Shown: positions 2,452-16,959 of the stretch, piece after piece
Position numbering within the stretch: position 1 is the stretch's first letter
Layout: each line of letters opens with the position of its first letter
Source: Kribbella qitaiheensis
GTDB taxonomy: Bacteria > Actinomycetota > Actinomycetes > Propionibacteriales > Kribbellaceae
Direction of reading: 5' to 3'
Assembly: GCF_014217565.1 (NCBI RefSeq)
Contig: NZ_CP043661.1
Location: 5,208,001-5,272,000, forward strand
Length of the DNA: 64,000 nucleotides
The notes under the pieces: model-generated
The model's input: only the letters and a program-made list of their open reading frames with translations
What the model was told of the DNA's origin: nothing
Database searches by the model: none
Made by a program: the position numbers and the translations under genes

Positions 2452-2955
2452 ATGACCGAGAACAACCGTGAGGACTACGGCAGCTACAGCGTCGACGACG
2501 AGGATCAGTTGCAGGCAGAGGACACGCTGAACGACCGGGGCGTGGACGATCTGCTGGACGAGGGCTACTCGCCGCCGGAGAAGTGGTCCGCGGGTGAAGG
2601 CTTCGGCACCACCGCCGACGAGGCGCTGGAGGGCGAGACGCTCGACCAGCGGATCGCGCAGGAGGAGCCGGACGTCGATCCGTACGCCGAGGAAGGCGAG
2701 AACGTCGGCGGTCCCGAGGTCGGTCAGGTCCGATCCGGCCGGCTGGTCGCGCCGGATGAAGGTGCGCACTCCGACGACGAGAAGGACCTGGTCGCCGAGG
2801 ACGTCGGCTTCGACGGCGCCGCCGCGAGCGCCGAGGAGGCCGCGGTCCACGTGGTCAACGACGACGAGCCCTTCGTGCTCGAAGACGAAGACGAAACCGA
2901 CCTCGAAGACGTCCGCGACGTGGATCTCGGCGACGTCGGCGACCCGGAGAACTGA
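2452..2955 (+). CDS. DUF5709 domain-containing protein
   Basis: A 167-residue, extremely acidic protein, rich in Asp and Glu throughout, with no membrane segment or cysteine. The motif DDLLDEGYSPPEKW near residue 32 is characteristic of the actinobacterial DUF5709 family. Function unknown. It is transcribed divergently from the FUSC-family gene and convergently with the P450. A GGTGGGGG run sits directly before the ATG as the likely ribosome-binding site. Confidence 0.88.
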   Translation: MTENNREDYGSYSVDDEDQLQAEDTLNDRGVDDLLDEGYSPPEKWSAGEGFGTTADEALEGETLDQRIAQEEPDVDPYAEEGENVGGPEVGQVRSGRLVAPDEGAHSDDEKDLVAEDVGFDGAAASAEEAAVHVVNDDEPFVLEDEDETDLEDVRDVDLGDVGDPEN

Positions 2956-2969
2956 AAGAGCCGTCAGTG

Positions 2970-2998
2970 CGCCGCGCCGGGGGGTTCCGTTGCGGCGC
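2970..2998 (+). terminator. GC-rich hairpin after DUF5709
   Basis: Seven perfect pairs (2970-2976 with 2992-2998) begin 15 bp past the DUF5709 stop. There is no long T run. It is likely part of a compound terminator with the palindrome at 3001-3050. Confidence 0.5.
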
Positions 2999-3000
2999 GC

Positions 3001-3050
3001 TAACGTCCGAAGAACTGGAGGGACGTCACCTCCACTTCTTCGGACATTAG
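3001..3050. repeat. Dispersed 50-bp palindrome, copy A
   Basis: An imperfect palindrome with arms CGTCCGAAGAA / TTCTTCGGAC and inner arms GGAGG / CCTCC. Its reverse complement matches 43 of 50 positions of the sequence at 16125-16174. Both copies lie between convergent genes, which suggests a bidirectional terminator or a REP-like element. Confidence 0.75.
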
Positions 3051-4375
3051 CGGGGAGTGGCGATTAGTTCGCAGCCGCGGGATGGGACCAGGGTTACGTT
3101 CCGCGGTGTTGCTTTCTCTGGTTCCGGGCGGAGCGCGTGGACGTTGTAGCGGGTTAGGGCGGCTCGGAGGATCTCGGTGGATTCCAGCAGGGTGAAGCCG
3201 GCGCCTATGCAGCGGCGGGTGCCGCCACCGAAGGGGATCCAGGTGCCGGGGGCTGGTGGGTTGTCGCCGAGGAAGCGGTCGGGGTGGAACTCGTTCACTT
3301 GCGGGTAGTTCTGCTCGTCGCCTTGCACCAGGCCGATCGCGGCCATCAGGGTGGTGCCGCGCGGTAGGCGGTAGCCGGCTATTTCTGTTGTCTCGGTGAG
3401 CCGTCGGCCGACCTGGTAGACGACCGGATGCAACCGCAACGCCTCTTTCGCGATCGCTTCCAGGTAGGCGTCGTTGACGTCGTCAGCCGCCTGTTGTCCG
3501 GCCTGCAGCTGGTCAGGTATCCGCGCGAGCTCATGGAACGCCCAGGCCAGCGCCGTCGCTGTCGTCTCGTGCCCGGCCAGCAGCAACGTCACCAGCTGGT
3601 CGCGCAGTTCGACGTCCGACCAGGTGCCTGCGGCAAGCAGTTTCGAGAGTACGTCGTTGCGCTCGGCAAGCTCAGGATCGTCCCGCCGGCGCGCGATCTC
3701 GTCGTACAGGATCTCGTCGACCTGCTCCTGGGCCCGCAGGAAGGTGCGCCACGGCGGAAATTTCAGCAGGGCGGGATAGAAGCCGCCGAGCATGATGATC
3801 GGCCGGACCGAGACCACCTTCTCGACCAGCGGTCGCAGCCGGTCCAGCCGGTCGGAGTCCGTCACCCCGAAGACCACTTGCAGGATCACTTCGAGGGTGA
3901 GGTTCCGCATCCGGTCGTGCAGCCGGAAGGACTCTCCGATCGGCCAGGCCTCGACCTCGGCGCGCGCCAGCCGGGCGATCATCTCGGCGTACCCGCGTAG
4001 CGCCGCGCCGTTGAAGGCCGGCATCAGCTGGCGGCGCATCCGGACATGGTCGTCATCGTCGACCAGCAACAACGAGTGCTTGCCCATGATCGGCTCGAGC
4101 GCGGTGTTCCCCTCACCCGCGTGCACGATCGACGGCGGCGTACTGAAGACCTCGCGGATGTGGTCCGGCCGGCTGAGTACCACGACGACCCGACTGCCCG
4201 GCACGAGCCGGACGGTGAAGACATCGCCGTACCGCGCCCGTAGCCGGGGGAAGAACGTCTTACGATGCCCGGCGAACAGGACGGTCTGAGCCAGCGTCGG
4301 CAATCGCGATCCCGGCGGGAGCGAACGAGCGGTCTCCCGATCCAGCGTGCGGCTTCCCAGTAACGGCGTGGTCAT
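3047..4375 (-). CDS. Cytochrome P450
   Basis: A 442-residue haem-thiolate monooxygenase. The I-helix oxygen-binding motif AGHETT is at 267-272, the K-helix EALR (ExxR) at 311-314, and the haem loop FGGGTRRCIG places the iron-ligand cysteine at C389. There is no N-terminal membrane anchor, as usual in bacteria. The full-length, well-aligned core suggests a working enzyme; the substrate cannot be read from sequence. No ferredoxin or reductase gene is adjacent, so redox partners must come from elsewhere. A hairpin at 4438-4473 separates it from the gene behind it. Confidence 0.95.
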   Translation of the reverse strand: MTTPLLGSRTLDRETARSLPPGSRLPTLAQTVLFAGHRKTFFPRLRARYGDVFTVRLVPGSRVVVVLSRPDHIREVFSTPPSIVHAGEGNTALEPIMGKHSLLLVDDDDHVRMRRQLMPAFNGAALRGYAEMIARLARAEVEAWPIGESFRLHDRMRNLTLEVILQVVFGVTDSDRLDRLRPLVEKVVSVRPIIMLGGFYPALLKFPPWRTFLRAQEQVDEILYDEIARRRDDPELAERNDVLSKLLAAGTWSDVELRDQLVTLLLAGHETTATALAWAFHELARIPDQLQAGQQAADDVNDAYLEAIAKEALRLHPVVYQVGRRLTETTEIAGYRLPRGTTLMAAIGLVQGDEQNYPQVNEFHPDRFLGDNPPAPGTWIPFGGGTRRCIGAGFTLLESTEILRAALTRYNVHALRPEPEKATPRNVTLVPSRGCELIATPR

Positions 4376-5260: not shown

Positions 5261-8200
5261 TCAGGCGCGCGTGAAGCGCAGGGTGAGGATCTGGAACGGG
5301 CGGAGGTCCAGCGAGACCGCGCCGTCGACGAGCTCCCGCTCGGCCAGGGTGCGCTCGAGCAGGTCGACCTCGGTCACCGAGGCGGCCTTGAAGCCCGGCG
5401 TGACGGCCGCACGCGACCGGCCGCCGGACGACTCGTACAGCCGGACGACGACGTCACCGGACTGGTCGTCGGCCAGCTTGACGGCCTCGACGATCACGTT
5501 GCCGTTGTCCACGGCAACGATCGGGTCGGTCCCGGCCGCGCCGCTGACGACGCGCTCCGGCAGGTTGATCCGGTACCCCTCCTCGATCGCCTCGGGGATG
5601 CCGGCGCCGACCACCAGTGCGTGGTTGACGACGTGCAAGCCCTGGTCGGTCTGCGGATCGGGGAAGCGCGGCGCCCGGATCAGCGACGTACGGATCGTCG
5701 TCGTGGTACCACCGTCCTCGCGGGCGGTCCGGTTGACGTCGTGTCCGTACGTCGAGTCGTTCACCACCGCGACGCCGTAGCCGGGCTCGCCGACGTGCAC
5801 CCAGCGATGCGCCGCGATCTCGAACTTCGCCGCGTCCCACGAGGTGTTCTGGTGGGTCGGCCGGAAGATGTGCCCGAACTGGGTCTCCGACGCCGACCGG
5901 TCGGCGTGTACGTCGACCGGGAAGGCTGCCTTGAGGAACTTCTCCGACTCGTGCCAGTCCATCGCGGTCTCGATGTCGACCCGCTTGGTGCCCGGCCGCA
6001 GCCGGAGCGTCTGGGTGACGCTCGACCGGTTGAAGGACCGCTTCACCACGACTGTGGCGACGCCCTCCTCGATCGAGAAGTCGACGGTGTCGACCTCGGT
6101 GACATCGCGGACGTTGTTCTTGTAGAACGAGTCGACGTCCCAGGCATCCCACTGGTTCGGGGTGTCCACGTGTAGCTGGAGCAGGTTCGCGGTGCTGCCG
6201 GGCGCGATCACCTCGCGCTTGGCGGCCACGTCGTACAGGCTCGTGATCAGGCCGCGTTCGTCGACGGTGACCCGGATCAGGCCGTTGTCGAGCACCTGGC
6301 CGTCGATCGTCGCCGCCTGACCCGCGCCGGTGGTGATCCCGGCGCCGAGACCGGCAACGCCTTCGCGGCTGTGCGGAGCCGCGTTGAAGACGATCTGATC
6401 CGATCCTTCACCGGCCAGCGCCTGCTGGGCCTTGGCGATGATCGCTTCGAGCTCCCCGGCCAGCCGCGCGTACGTCGCCTCGGCCTCGCGGTGCACCCAC
6501 GCGATCGAGCTGCCCGGCAGGATGTCGTGGAACTGGTTCAGCAGGACCTCTTTCCAGATCCGGTCCAGCTCGTCGTACGGGTAGCTGTCGAGCTTGCCGG
6601 CCACCACGGGCCGCCGCCGACCACAGCTCGGCCTCGCGGAGCAGGTGCTCGCTGCGCCGGTTGCCCTGCTTGGTCTTCGCCTGCGAGGTGTACGTCGCGC
6701 GGTGGATCTCCAGGTAGAGCTCGCCCGACCAGACCGGGGCGTTCGGGTACTCCTCCTGCGCGGCGCTGAAGAAGTCGGTCGGCGACTCGATCGTCACCCG
6801 CGGGGAGGACTCCAGGTTGGCGACCCGGCGGGCGGTCGCGATGAACTCACGGGTGGGGCCGCCACCGCCGTCGCCGTAGCCGAACGGGACCAGCGAGCGG
6901 GTCGCCGAGCCGTTCTCGGCGAAGTTGCGCTGTGCGTGCGCGAGCTCGCGGCCGGACAGGTCGGAGTTGTAGGTGTCGATCGGCGGGAAGTGGGTGAACA
7001 CCTGGGTCCCGTCGAGGCCCTCCCACAGGAAGGTGTGGTGCGGGAACTTGTTCTTCTGGTTCCAGGAGATCTTCTGGGTCAGGAACCACTTCGAGCCGGA
7101 CAGCTTCACCAGTTGCGGCAGCGCGGCGGTGTAGCCGAACGAGTCCGGCAGCCAGACCTCCTGGGTGTCGATGCCGTACTCGTCCAGGAAGAATCGCTTG
7201 CCGTGCACGAACTGCCTGGCAAGCGCCTCGCCGCCGGGCAGGTTGGTGTCGGACTCGACCCACATGCCACCGACCGGCACGATGGTGCCCTCTGCAACGG
7301 CCTTCTTCAGCCGCTCCCAGACCTCGGGGTAGTTGTCCTTCACCCACGCGTGCTGCTGCGCCTGCGAGAAGGCGAAGACGAGCTCCGGGTACTCCTCGGC
7401 CAGGGTGGCGACGTTGGAGATCGTGCGGGCCACCTTGCGGCGGGTCTCGCGCAGCGGCCAGAGCCACGCCGAGTCGATGTGCGCGTGGCCGACAGCGGAG
7501 AGCTGGTGAGCACTCGCGTGCGCAGGACGACTCAGTACGTCGGTGAGCTCGGCGCGCGCGTCCGTCGCAGTACCGGCGACGTCTTCGTAGTCCAGTACGT
7601 CGAGGGCCTTGCTCAGCGCGCGGAGGATCTCGCGGCTGCGAGGCTCCTGCGGCGCCAGTTCCTTCTGCAGGCCGTTCAGCGCCTCGAGGTCGAGGATGAG
7701 GTCCCACACCTCGGCGTTGAAGACAGCCAGGTCGGCGCGGGTCAGCTCGTAGATCGGCTTGCCACCCGGCTCCGGCTTGCTGCCGAGGTCGGCGGAGATC
7801 GGCGCGAACGCGTTCCAGCCCAGTACCTCGGGGTTGGCGGCCGCCTCGACGTAGAACTCGATGCTGTCGCCGGCCGAGGCCGCGGAACCGTCAGGGCCCA
7901 GGATGGACAGCGGCGCGTAGGTCTGGCGCGGGTGCAGGCCCTTCAGCGGGACGCCCTTGGTGGTGTGCACCAGGCCCTCCGCGGAGAAGCCCGGGCCGCC
8001 GCTGAAGCCCAGGTCGATCACTGCCTCGATCTCGCTGCCGGCCCACTCGGCCGGCACCTGGCCGCTGAAGTGGAACCAGGCGGTGCCCCAGGCCGGACCC
8101 CAGGGCAGGCCGATCTCGGCCGGCTCGTAACTGGCCTCGAGCGCCTCGGCGGGTGACACCGGCTCACCAGGTGTGTGCCACACCTTGATGTCCAGCGGGA

Positions 8201-8285
8201 CGGCCGCGCCGTAGATCGCGGGGCGGATCCGCTCCCGCAGGGCGCGCTTGAGCCGCTCCTCGATGAGTTGACGGTCGTCGTGCAC
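5261..8285 (-). pseudogene. GH38 alpha-mannosidase, disrupted by one frameshift
   Basis: Joined across one indel, the two frames give a full GH38 enzyme of about 1008 residues. The N-terminal part (8285 to about 6612) carries HAHIDSAWLW (267-276) and the nucleophile motif WLPDSFGY (D381). The C-terminal part resumes at VAGKLDSYPYDELDRIW and continues through the beta-rich domains to 5261. The break lies at GGGCC 6608-6612; removing one base restores AELWSAA-VVAGKLDSYPY. The family hydrolyses alpha-mannosides in the cytoplasm. The start is a GTG with GGAGG upstream. A LacI-type operator lies 65 bp upstream. Either a recent pseudogene or a sequencing error. Confidence 0.9.
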
Positions 8286-12913: not shown

Positions 12914-14945
12914 ATGACTGTGGGTGTTGGTTCGGGGGGCGGCACTGCCGCGCTCTCCGAGTCCGAGCTAGCCGAGTACGAGCAGGAAAAGCCTGCCCGG
13001 CGGCTGCATCCTGCCCTCGACCAGATGATCTCGGTCTGGTGCGCGGTGGTCAGCGTCGGTGTCCTGCTGCAGGTTTTCTTTCCGTTGTCGCAAGGAACCC
13101 AGTTTTATTTAGTGATCTTTCTCGCAGCCGTCCTTCCGATCACGTTGTTGTGCTATCGGGGCTGGCATGTGCCGCCGTTCCTGAATCCCTTCAAGGCGCG
13201 CAGCAGCGGCAGTGACAACCCCGGTGTCATCGACTGGGTACTGGCCGTGGTCGCGCTGCTGGTCTGCATCTACCCACTGTTCGACTTCGACGGCTACCTC
13301 GAACGACGCCAGACCCCGACCTCCCTCGACGTGCTCGCGGGCGCAGTACTGCTCGTACTACTGCTGGAAGCCTGCCGTCGTACTACGGGGTGGGTGCTGC
13401 CGGCGTTCAGTCTCCTGTTCATCGCCTACGCGTACTACGGCGGCTACCTGCCCTACACCTGGTCGCTGGCCCATCAGGGCTTCAACTTCGACGCGATCAT
13501 CGCCCAGTTCACGATGGGCACCGCCGGCTTCTACGGCACACCACTGGGAGTCGCGGCCAGCTACATCGTGCTGTTCACCATCTACGGAGCAGTGCTCGAC
13601 TACTCCGGCGCAGGCAAGTTCTTCATCGACCTGTCGTTCGCCGCGTTCAAGCGAAGCCGTACTGCGCCCGGCCGTACCGTCACGCTCGCCGGGTTCCTGC
13701 TGGGCAGTGTGTCCGGCTCCGGTACTGCGACGGCCCGTCTCGCTGGGCACTGTCTCCTGGCCGATCCTCCGCCGCGCGGGCTACCCGCCTGAGCCCGCCG
13801 GCGGAATGCTCGCGGCTGCCGGCATCGGCGCGATCCTGTCGCCGCCGACGCTGGGAGCGGCCGCGTTCATCATCGCGGAGTTCCTGCAGGTCTCGTACCT
13901 GACCGTGCTCGGCTATGCCACGATCCCGACGATCCTGTACTACCTGGGCATCCTGCTCGCGATCGAGATCGACGCCCGCAAGCACGGGACGATCAACGCG
14001 GAGACGTCCACCCGCTCCGCGCGGAAGCTGTTGCTGCGGTTCAGCTACCACTTCCTCTCGCTGTTCGTGATCATCGGCTTCATGGCGGTGGACGTGCCGC
14101 CGTTCAAGGCCGTGGTCTATGCGGTGATCATCCAGTTCGGGTTGTCGTTCCTCGATCGTGAGCATCGGCTGTCGGCCGGGCCGTTGCTCAAAGCGCTTGC
14201 CCAGGGCACCCGTTCGGTTCTGCCGGTCGCGGCCACCTGTGCGACGGCCGGTGTGATCGTCGCGGTCACCACCCAGACCGGTCTCGGGCTGAACCTGGCC
14301 GAGATCATCGTGGCGGCGGCGAAGGGGCTGACGGACAACCCGACGGTCGTACTGATCCTGACCGTCGTGCTGTCGGCGTTCGCAGTACTGGTGCTCGGAC
14401 TGGCGGTGCCGGTGACCGCGTCGTTCATCATCGCGGCGGTCATCATCGCGCCGGCGCTGGTGCAGCTCGGCGTGACGCAGCCCGAGGCGTATATGTTCAT
14501 CTTCTACTACGCGGTGCTCTCCGAGGTCTCGCCGCCGACCGCGCTGGCCGCGGTGGCGACGTCCGCGATCACCGGCGGCAAGACGATGGCGACGATGTGG
14601 CAGGCCTGGAAGTACACGCTGCCCGCCTTCCTGGTGCCGTTCGCCTTCGTACTCACCGACAACGGCGCACACCTGCTGGGACAGGGCAGCTTGATCGGGA
14701 TGGTCTGGACGCTCGCCGTCTCCATGCTCGCCGTTGCTGCCCTGGCCGTGGTGACCGGCGGCTGGATCGCGATCGCCACCGGCTGGGCCGAGCGGCTGCT
14801 CTGTGTCCCGGCCGCGCTGCTGCTGCTCTACCTCGCGCCCGTAACCATCGCGGCCGGAATCGGTTTGCTACTTGTTGCCGTCGTCATCAATCTCCTCCGG
14901 CGGCAAAAGCTGGCTGGAGCAACGGAAGGATCCGCCACTTCATGA
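12914..14945 (+). pseudogene. TRAP transporter fused permease (DctQM type), disrupted by one frameshift
   Basis: Reconstructed, this is about 677 residues with many hydrophobic helices, the expected length for the fused small and large permease subunits of TAXI-TRAP systems. The first frame ends at 13792 after GSVSGSGTAT. The second, in frame with SLGTVSWPILRRAGYPPE, runs to 14945. The break is at GGCCC 13732-13736, where removing one base restores GTATAVSLGTVSWPILRR. The family uses an ion gradient to import organic acids. The last four bases overlap the start of the next binding protein (ATGA), indicating coupled translation. Confidence 0.92.
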
Positions 14946-15922
14946 GAATTCGTCGCCTCCCCATCGCCGTGGTCGCGCTGGCCGCAGCCGTCTCACTGGT
15001 CGCCTGTGGCGGACAGCGTGAGCCCGAAGGCGGCAAAGCCGGCACCGACGGCGGCCGGCTGACGATTGCCACCGGCAACACCACTGGCGTCTACTACCAA
15101 CTCGGTGGTGCGCTCGCCTCGGTGATCTCGTCGAAGGTCGAGGGCTACCGGGCGACCGCGAGTGAGACGGGTGCCTCGGTGCAGAACGTCCAGGGCCTGG
15201 TGGCGGGCAACTACGACATCGCCTTCTCCCTCGGAGACACCGCGGCCGATGCGGTGAAAGGCCAGTACAGCTTCAAGTCCCCGCAGGACGTGGTAGCGCT
15301 GACCCGCCTCTACTCGAACTACACGCAGGTCGCGGTCCGGGCATCGTCGGGAATCGACAAGATCGCCGATCTGAAGGGCAAGCGGGTCTCCACCGGTTCG
15401 CCGAACTCCGGCACCGAGGTGATCGCCCGCCGGCTGCTCGAGGCGGCCGGCCTGAACCCGGCCCAGGACGTGACCGCCCAGCGGCTCGGCCTGCCGGAGT
15501 CGGTCGATGCGATGAAGAGCGGCTCGATCGACGCGCTGGTCTGGTCCGGCGGGCTGCCGACCGGTGGCATCACCGACCTGACCACCAGCCTGGGCAAGGG
15601 CGTCAAACTGATCCCGATCGCGGACCTGCTGCCGGCCCTGCAGAAGACGTACGGCACGATCTATGCCCAAGGCAACATTCCGTCCGCGACCTACAAGCAG
15701 CCGGCGGACGTCGCGACCATCGTCGTGCCGAACGTGCTGCTGGTCCGGAAGAACATGTCCGACGAACTCGCGGAGAAGCTCACCAAGACGATCTTCGAGA
15801 ACAAGGACGCGCTGGTCCAGGTGAACGCGGCGGCCAAGGGCATCACCTTGGAGAACGCCGCCAAGACCGACCCGGTGCCGTTGCACCCCGGCGCGAAGAA
15901 GGCGCTCGACGCACTGAAGTAG
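14942..15922 (+). CDS. TAXI-family TRAP transporter solute-binding lipoprotein (second copy)
   Basis: 326 residues. Signal peptide and lipobox end at C22 (SLVACGG). The TAXI core reads TIATGNTTGVYYQLGG, STGSPNSGTEVIARRLL and DALVWSGGLPTGG, paralleling the first copy at 8457. The ATG at 14942 overlaps the permease stop by four bases, so this is the dedicated partner of that permease. The operon ends in hairpins and a terminator at 16055-16110. Confidence 0.95.
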   Translation: MRIRRLPIAVVALAAAVSLVACGGQREPEGGKAGTDGGRLTIATGNTTGVYYQLGGALASVISSKVEGYRATASETGASVQNVQGLVAGNYDIAFSLGDTAADAVKGQYSFKSPQDVVALTRLYSNYTQVAVRASSGIDKIADLKGKRVSTGSPNSGTEVIARRLLEAAGLNPAQDVTAQRLGLPESVDAMKSGSIDALVWSGGLPTGGITDLTTSLGKGVKLIPIADLLPALQKTYGTIYAQGNIPSATYKQPADVATIVVPNVLLVRKNMSDELAEKLTKTIFENKDALVQVNAAAKGITLENAAKTDPVPLHPGAKKALDALK

Positions 15923-15935
15923 CCCCCAGATCCGT

Positions 15936-16048
15936 CCTCCCCCGCACTCCAGGCGCAGCGGGGGAGGGCGCAAGATCCCACCTCCGCACACCAGGCGCAG
16001 CGGAGGCGGGAACAAGGCCCACCCTCACAACCAGGCGCAGTGGGGGAG
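15936..16048. repeat. Three tandem stem-loops sharing one loop sequence
   Basis: Stems at 15936-15945/15958-15967 (10 bp), 15981-15987/16000-16006 (7 bp) and 16022-16028/16040-16046 (7 bp with one G-U). Stem sequences differ but all three loops contain CCAGGCGCA. Conservation of loop over stem is unusual for simple terminators. Confidence 0.7.
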
Positions 16049-16054
16049 GGGTCA

Positions 16055-16110
16055 GGCCGGGCCCGTACCGAGCGGAGGCATCCGCACGGACCACGGGCCC
16101 GGCCGCCTTT
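16055..16110 (+). terminator. Terminator of the TAXI-TRAP operon
   Basis: A perfect 12-bp stem (16055-16066 with 16093-16104) contains an inner GCGGA/TCCGC hairpin and is followed by CTTTT at 16107-16111. It ends the plus-strand operon. Confidence 0.75.
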
Positions 16111-16124
16111 TGCGTTTGGCCGCC

Positions 16125-16174
16125 TGACGTCCGAACAAGTGAAGGTGACGTCCCTCCGCTTCTTCGGACGTAAG
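16125..16174. repeat. Dispersed 50-bp palindrome, copy B
   Basis: Matches the reverse complement of 3001-3050 at 43 of 50 positions, with the central AAGGTGACGTCCCTCC invariant. As with copy A, it lies between two converging genes. Confidence 0.75.
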
Positions 16175-16180
16175 CGCTCG

Positions 16181-16831
16181 CTACTGAGGCTTCTTGTCCG
16201 GGATAAGGGTGCCGCGCAGGTAGTGCGACAGAGCCGAGTCCCGTTTCGGGTGCACGTGGTACTTCGTCGGGATCACGCGTCCCTCCGCGGTGTCCCAGGC
16301 CGAGTCGGCCACCCGCCACATCCGGTGCGCCAGGCGGCCCGCCGTCCCGGTGTGTGGGGAGTATGGATGGGCTCGGGTCGGCGCTACCTCTTCGGCACTG
16401 AGCAGCTTCTCGGTCAAGGCGGAGACGTGGTCGGTGTCGAGTTCCTCGCCGATCATCCGGCCGCACTCCGCCTCGAGGTGCTCGTGTTCGGCGAGCAACC
16501 GGTCGATGACCTGCCAGACGTGCTCCGGATGCAGATGAAGGACCCGGCTGTCGCCGTACTGGCGGGCCTTGAGGAACCGTAGTGAGCGTTCCAGTTGTTT
16601 GGCGTTGCCGACGTACGCGGCGACTCTTTCGCGGCCGTCGGGGAGCCGCCGGACGTGCGGGAGGAGCACGTCCTCGGCGGCGGCGAGATGCTGCGCCGCG
16701 ATGGCGTAGAACCAGTCGGTCTGGTGTCTGCGATCCGGCCTGCTGCCGCCCGGTTGCTGGGCCGGGGCGGCGAGTTCGCGGATCATGCTGTGTTCGTAGG
16801 CCAAGGCCTGCTCGAGGGTCGAAGCGGTCAA
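16181..16831 (-). CDS. Hemerythrin HHE-domain protein
   Basis: 216 residues, helical, with the repeated His/Glu pattern of hemerythrin-like cation-binding domains: YEHSMI, QHLAAAEDVLLPH and LLAEHEHLEAE. Such domains bind a di-iron centre for oxygen, NO or redox sensing. I chose the TTG at 16831 because AGGAGG lies 8 nt upstream of it; the frame's first GTG at 16840 would overlap that ribosome-binding site. It stands alone. Iron ligation is inferred from pattern, not proven. Confidence 0.78.
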   Translation of the reverse strand: MTASTLEQALAYEHSMIRELAAPAQQPGGSRPDRRHQTDWFYAIAAQHLAAAEDVLLPHVRRLPDGRERVAAYVGNAKQLERSLRFLKARQYGDSRVLHLHPEHVWQVIDRLLAEHEHLEAECGRMIGEELDTDHVSALTEKLLSAEEVAPTRAHPYSPHTGTAGRLAHRMWRVADSAWDTAEGRVIPTKYHVHPKRDSALSHYLRGTLIPDKKPQ

Positions 16832-16959
16832 GGCAACCACCTCCTGGGGGGCTATCTCCCCAGCCTGCGCCTCGGGCTGTGCAGGCGCAATCGCGCCAGC
16901 ACAGCCCGTAACCGAATCGTCAGATCCCGCCCGATTTCGCGCTCAGGCGAGCCGCACGC

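Follow-up and report, generated by a model that had tools for sequence, protein, structure and literature searches.

A palindromic repeat family of Kribbella at gene 3' ends and its possible use as a bidirectional hairpin

Why does a 50-bp palindrome occur twice, in opposite orientation, in one short piece of a Kribbella genome, and what could it do for the genes on either side? The question was raised by positions 3001-3050 of a 64,000-nucleotide stretch of the Kribbella qitaiheensis genome (contig NZ_CP043661.1, positions 5,208,001 to 5,272,000; hereafter the window), which an earlier note on this DNA had taken for a member of a repetitive extragenic palindromic (REP)-like family used as bidirectional terminator or protein-binding site. 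A dispersed family was indeed found: the host genome holds 129 exact copies, with a strong bias towards gene 3' ends and an excess in convergent gaps. The reading we prefer, with a probability of about 0.58, is that of a Kribbella-specific REP/REPIN-like repeat without a RAYT transposase, used as a bidirectional 3'-end hairpin that lacks a U-tract and would act as terminator or stabiliser.

The palindrome and its family

Positions 3001-3050 (copy 1) are identical at 43 of 50 positions to the reverse complement of 16124-16173 (copy 2). The earlier note gave the same count for 16125-16174, which is off by one and yields 11 of 50. The best score of the 50-mer in 20 first-order Markov sequences of 64 kb was 28 of 50, and a repeat search of the window returned the pair as its top inverted repeat (54 nt, 87%). 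Each copy folds on either strand into one long hairpin, with energies of -27.8 to -41.9 kcal/mol and z scores of -3.5 to -10.1. The changes had been assigned to loops or arm ends; three of the seven do lie at arm ends, but the other four are inside the stem and none is in a loop. Both copies stand in convergent gaps, as had been observed, one between genes for a DUF5709 protein and a cytochrome P450, the other between genes for a TAXI/NMT1-like solute-binding protein and a 219-aa protein. The TAA stop of the P450 gene (3049-3047) is inside the outer arm of copy 1, and the core of copy 2 is 10 bp from the stop codon of the 219-aa protein gene.

The family was searched for with the pattern CGTCCGAA-N24-30-TTCGGACG, using the backwards pattern as control. 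In the 8.16-Mb host genome the 129 copies at gap 24-30 became 132 at gap 4-34, against 0 for the control. Exact copies occur in 23 of 38 Kribbella genomes (0-184 per genome; control none), and a near relative, genome G037, has 3. Allowing two mismatches at a fixed gap of 26 nt gained few copies, copy-free genomes reaching at most 6 compared to 0-3 for the control. Among 294 genomes of the order scanned, the 256 outside Kribbella gave one match, the same as the control, and viral contigs gave none. The GTDB collection was also scanned with the pattern. The named matches were Kribbella, apart from records that bear the title 'Streptomyces sp. SID13031'; the copy they carry at the citE site is the one found in G027, a Kribbella genome. 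Rfam 15 gave no match above gathering score for the element, only chance matches far below it, and no description of the family in Kribbella was found in the literature searched. The repeat looks like a family found only in the genus Kribbella. Adjacent copies recur with a period of about 61-62 bp in several places, and larger tandem arrays are present in genome G001. At the 3' end of citE in genome G010 (locus L369), half-sites of the element (CGTCCGAAGAAAGCCGATG) are repeated in tandem and run into a full copy.

The anatomy was read from contiguous tiles totalling 2.4 Mb of the host genome, which contain 53 exact copies and 8 with one arm mismatch; two mismatches are at background level. The element consists of two near-invariant 8-bp arms, CGTCCGAA...TTCGGACG, with a gap of 26 or 27 nt. 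The palindrome is 42-43 nt long, or about 54-60 nt counting paired flanks, which lengthen it as TTR...YAA. An invariant centre TGACGTC, itself palindromic, had been proposed; that centre is common to the two window copies only, and just GACGTC within it is palindromic. Across the family the centre varies and the arms are invariant. Within the host genome, outer pairs -2 and -1 and inner pairs 8-10 covary; covariation pooled over species was set aside, as centres peculiar to each species imitate it. The invariance of the arms and the weak covariation of the inner stem show that sequence, not pairing alone, is constrained: the arms are held to their sequence, whereas the apex is under no more than a loose constraint on pairing. 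The halves of the element alone fold no better than shuffled sequence (-4.97 vs -4.86 kcal/mol). Single half-sites are not enriched, with 17 intergenic CGTCCGAA outside exact elements where 18.6 were expected. Two candidates were rejected: a DNA uptake sequence, since half-sites are enriched only as inverted pairs, and a plain structural RNA hairpin, since inner pairs do not covary within the host genome.

Placement behind stop codons

Placement was assessed against 5000 random placements, using the 51 copies from the 2.4 Mb of host sequence that fall in spacers of 50 bp or more. Genes were called with a home-made codon model, and individual contexts may be wrong. No more than 25 bp separate 33 of the 51 copies from a stop codon (random mean 4.7, maximum 13). 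Convergent gaps hold 22 copies (random mean 8.6, maximum 18). The copies are not confined to convergent gaps, as a further 22 are in tandem and 7 in divergent ones. For other Kribbella copies the corresponding counts were 67 convergent, 34 tandem and 3 divergent, and 96 of 101 stop-to-copy distances in other, named Kribbella were at most 20 bp. The typical position is about 5-20 bp behind the stop codon. One context that may be wrong is that of a cluster of three copies at 6650776-6650941 of the host genome, called genic: a glutamate-5-kinase-like gene apparently stops ahead of it, and a UspA-like gene faces it.

Folding past stops was strongest at element-bearing 3' ends, with a mean z of -5.05 compared to -1.18 at other convergent ends and -0.17 at 5' ends. 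Two other palindromic families of the host genome, CTTTGTGC and GTCCGCTG, are located 58 to several hundred bp from stops, and closeness to stops is therefore no general property of palindromes in this genome. The placement of the element favours a role at the 3' end. No recurrent neighbour gene was found beside the copies; only common families (ABC, LacI, SDR) recur. Of the two other families, the former (CTTTGTGC...GCACAAAG, about 56 nt) occurs at 7 places in the 2.4 Mb, away from stops. The latter (GTCCGCTG-N36-CAGCGGAC) also occurs at 7 places, in near-identical copies with conserved flanks, and resembles a miniature inverted-repeat transposable element.

Site history and spread

The presence of both window copies is lineage-specific. 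Neither window copy was found in orthologous spacers, 29 of which were read for the 219-aa protein gene and 29 for the DUF5709 gene; a few of the latter read-outs stop short of the P450 gene. Four orthologous DUF5709 spacers (L300, L302, L306 and L325) have different long palindromes in place of copy 1. Copy 2 adjoins a conserved hairpin array, and the edges of its insertion cannot be drawn cleanly, since the end of the gene differs too. The array (window 15930-16108, - strand, 3' of the 219-aa protein gene) consists of a single hairpin whose apex is GGATGCCTCC and three whose loop is CTGCGCCTGGT. Tandem hairpins were present at the orthologous place in the 30 Kribbella genomes read, with the GGATGCCTCC apex in 29. 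RNAalifold on 28 array sequences gave 41 pairs with 94% of cells paired, and 14 pairs showed at least two Watson-Crick types; no Rfam match was obtained for the array.

Site sharing was analysed in 15 distinct orthologous spacers, and in 8 of these a copy was present in both species. At the 3' end of citE, exact-arm copies with differing centres were seen in seven genomes and none in two near relatives. The centres are genome-specific: mean similarity within a genome was 0.73-0.78 for four of six genomes, compared to 0.53-0.60 between unlike genomes. In most pairings a centre resembled those of its own genome more than the one at the orthologous site: for 10 of the 12 orthologous pairs, a quarter or more of the paralogs were closer in centre than the ortholog. 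This pattern could possibly come from conversion at long-standing sites or from recurrent insertion at preferred ones.

A RAYT-type transposase had been proposed as a further check. The RAYT profile NF047646 matched none of the 38 Kribbella genomes, while E. coli and other positive controls were matched, and Y1_Tnp (PF01797) was found in one of the 38, which is not the host genome. A RAYT/Y1 transposase was therefore rejected as the spreader in the host genome. Spread, and homogenisation within a genome, would instead be due to some other factor that recognises the invariant ends.

Explanations weighed and known systems

In the preferred reading, the transcript of either strand is predicted to fold into a long G+C-rich hairpin, so that one copy could serve both genes of a convergent pair. 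The hairpin would form or protect the mRNA 3' end of one or both neighbours, either as a terminator without a U-tract or as a barrier to 3'-exonucleases. The position a few bases past stops, the strong folding and the symmetry all point to such a use. Several observations count against it. In the 12 copies that could be measured, the 8 nt past the stem never held four or more T, and termination by U-less hairpins in actinobacteria is disputed. Within the host genome no covariation is seen at inner stem pairs 11, 12 and 14, where a purely structural hairpin should show it. Fifteen of the 38 Kribbella genomes have no exact copy, which implies that the function is dispensable or borne by other hairpins. 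As for mobility of the kind shown by miniature inverted-repeat transposable elements, inverted ends are present, but no direct repeat of 3-9 bp was found flanking 212 copies at a fixed offset, and neither a mobilising enzyme nor an excision was seen for the element. A bolder version, which we put forward only tentatively, is that of mobile bidirectional 3'-end hairpins throughout the genus, spread with a mobilising or homogenising system that is not RAYT; they would either insert or be retained at a set distance behind stops, and their centres would be rewritten in each genome at conserved sites, a concerted evolution of dispersed terminators.

The swings in copy number among species, the lineage-specific window copies, the species-specific centres and the tandem arrays would all suit a selfish mobile palindrome, non-autonomous and with no function in the cell, piling up past stops because selection purges insertions in genes, promoters and leaders. 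We consider this unlikely, as the two other palindromic families do not crowd stops, the 5-20 bp spacing is narrower than one would expect from purging alone, and the arms stay exact at sites shared among species. The near-invariant arms, the variable inner stem with its non-covarying pairs, the fixed gap and the enrichment of half-sites only as inverted pairs could also be due to a dimeric sequence-specific protein binding two CGTCCGAA half-sites as DNA (a nucleoid protein, a gyrase-type target or a transcription roadblock), the hairpin being incidental. This idea is about as unlikely: placement follows stop codons and hence transcripts, pairs -1, -2 and 8-10 do covary, and many Kribbella genomes carry no copies. 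Ordinary Rho-independent terminators, unrelated and alike by chance or convergence, would explain a hairpin at gene 3' ends; this is almost certainly wrong, being refuted by 16 identical arm bases at 129 places and none in the control, by the missing T-run and by the restriction to a single genus.

The canonical Rho-independent terminator shares with the element a G+C-rich hairpin but not the absence of a U-tract. A closer likeness is found in the CGTC-tagged REPs (Di Nocera et al. 2013, PMC3733652), high-copy and species-patchy short palindromes without a dedicated transposase, mostly downstream of genes and, in convergent gaps, often less than 20 bp from both 3' ends. The Kribbella element is likewise patchy, without dedicated transposase, mostly downstream of genes and often less than 20 bp from 3' ends, and it has a CGTC motif at its end. 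CGTC REPs are defined by an unpaired CGTC tag on an 8-9 bp stem, together with a loop of 4-5 nt and a CCA tail, and Actinobacteria are not among the five phyla for which they are listed (PMC3733652); in Kribbella, however, the CGTC is paired within one long hairpin with a stem of about 20 bp, whose halves have no hairpin of their own. With REPINs and their RAYT (Bertels and Rainey 2011, PMC3116915) the element shares invariant inverted ends, a less conserved spacer, a joint hairpin and a sequence population within the genome, but it has neither a RAYT nor halves that are REP palindromes. Lacking the tag and short stem of the one and the RAYT and REP halves of the other, the family is REP-like but neither a CGTC REP nor a REPIN. 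In Streptomyces clavuligerus, transcript ends at hairpins without U ('I-shaped' terminators) and bidirectional ends have been reported (PMC8269248). The long G+C-rich hairpin at Kribbella gene 3' ends, with no U-tract, is similar; unlike the S. clavuligerus ends, which are not described as one sequence family, it is one homologous sequence serving many genes.

Coordinates of the copies, their neighbouring genes and examples of the two other palindrome families (window positions unless stated)
Feature	Position	Strand
Copy 1, 27-nt-gap type; core CGTCCGAA...TTCGGACA at 3004-3046	2997..3050	.
Copy 1, left arm, invariant CGTCCGAA	3004..3011	+
Copy 1, right arm TTCGGACA, one mismatch to invariant TTCGGACG	3039..3046	-
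Copy 2, opposite orientation, 27-nt gap; core 16128-16170, both arms exact	16124..16177	.
DUF5709 protein gene, left convergent neighbour of copy 1	2452..2955	+
Cytochrome P450 gene, right convergent neighbour of copy 1	3047..4375	-
TAXI/NMT1-like solute-binding protein gene, left convergent neighbour of copy 2	14942..15922	+
Gene for 219-aa protein without Pfam match, right convergent neighbour of copy 2	16181..16840	-
Second palindrome family, examples (host genome)	483571-483626; 5463054-5463194	
Third palindrome family, examples (host genome)	1409644-1409695; 5294481-5294532	

Two further loci of the window may contain frameshifts. Two open frames, 5261-6607 and 6408-8285, overlap on the - strand (5261-8285), and the downstream one of the two is similar to the C-terminal portion of a glycosidase. 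A TRAP transporter permease is split over two frames at 12914-14945 (+ strand), and in the second of these the DctM match starts only at profile position 112.

The family touches two open questions, namely how transcripts end without U-tracts in actinobacteria, and how REP-like repeats originate and persist when no transposase is dedicated to them. Native copies and natural empty sites permit a direct before-and-after comparison of termination, and the contrast between copy-rich and copy-free genomes permits a search for the enzyme that may spread the element.
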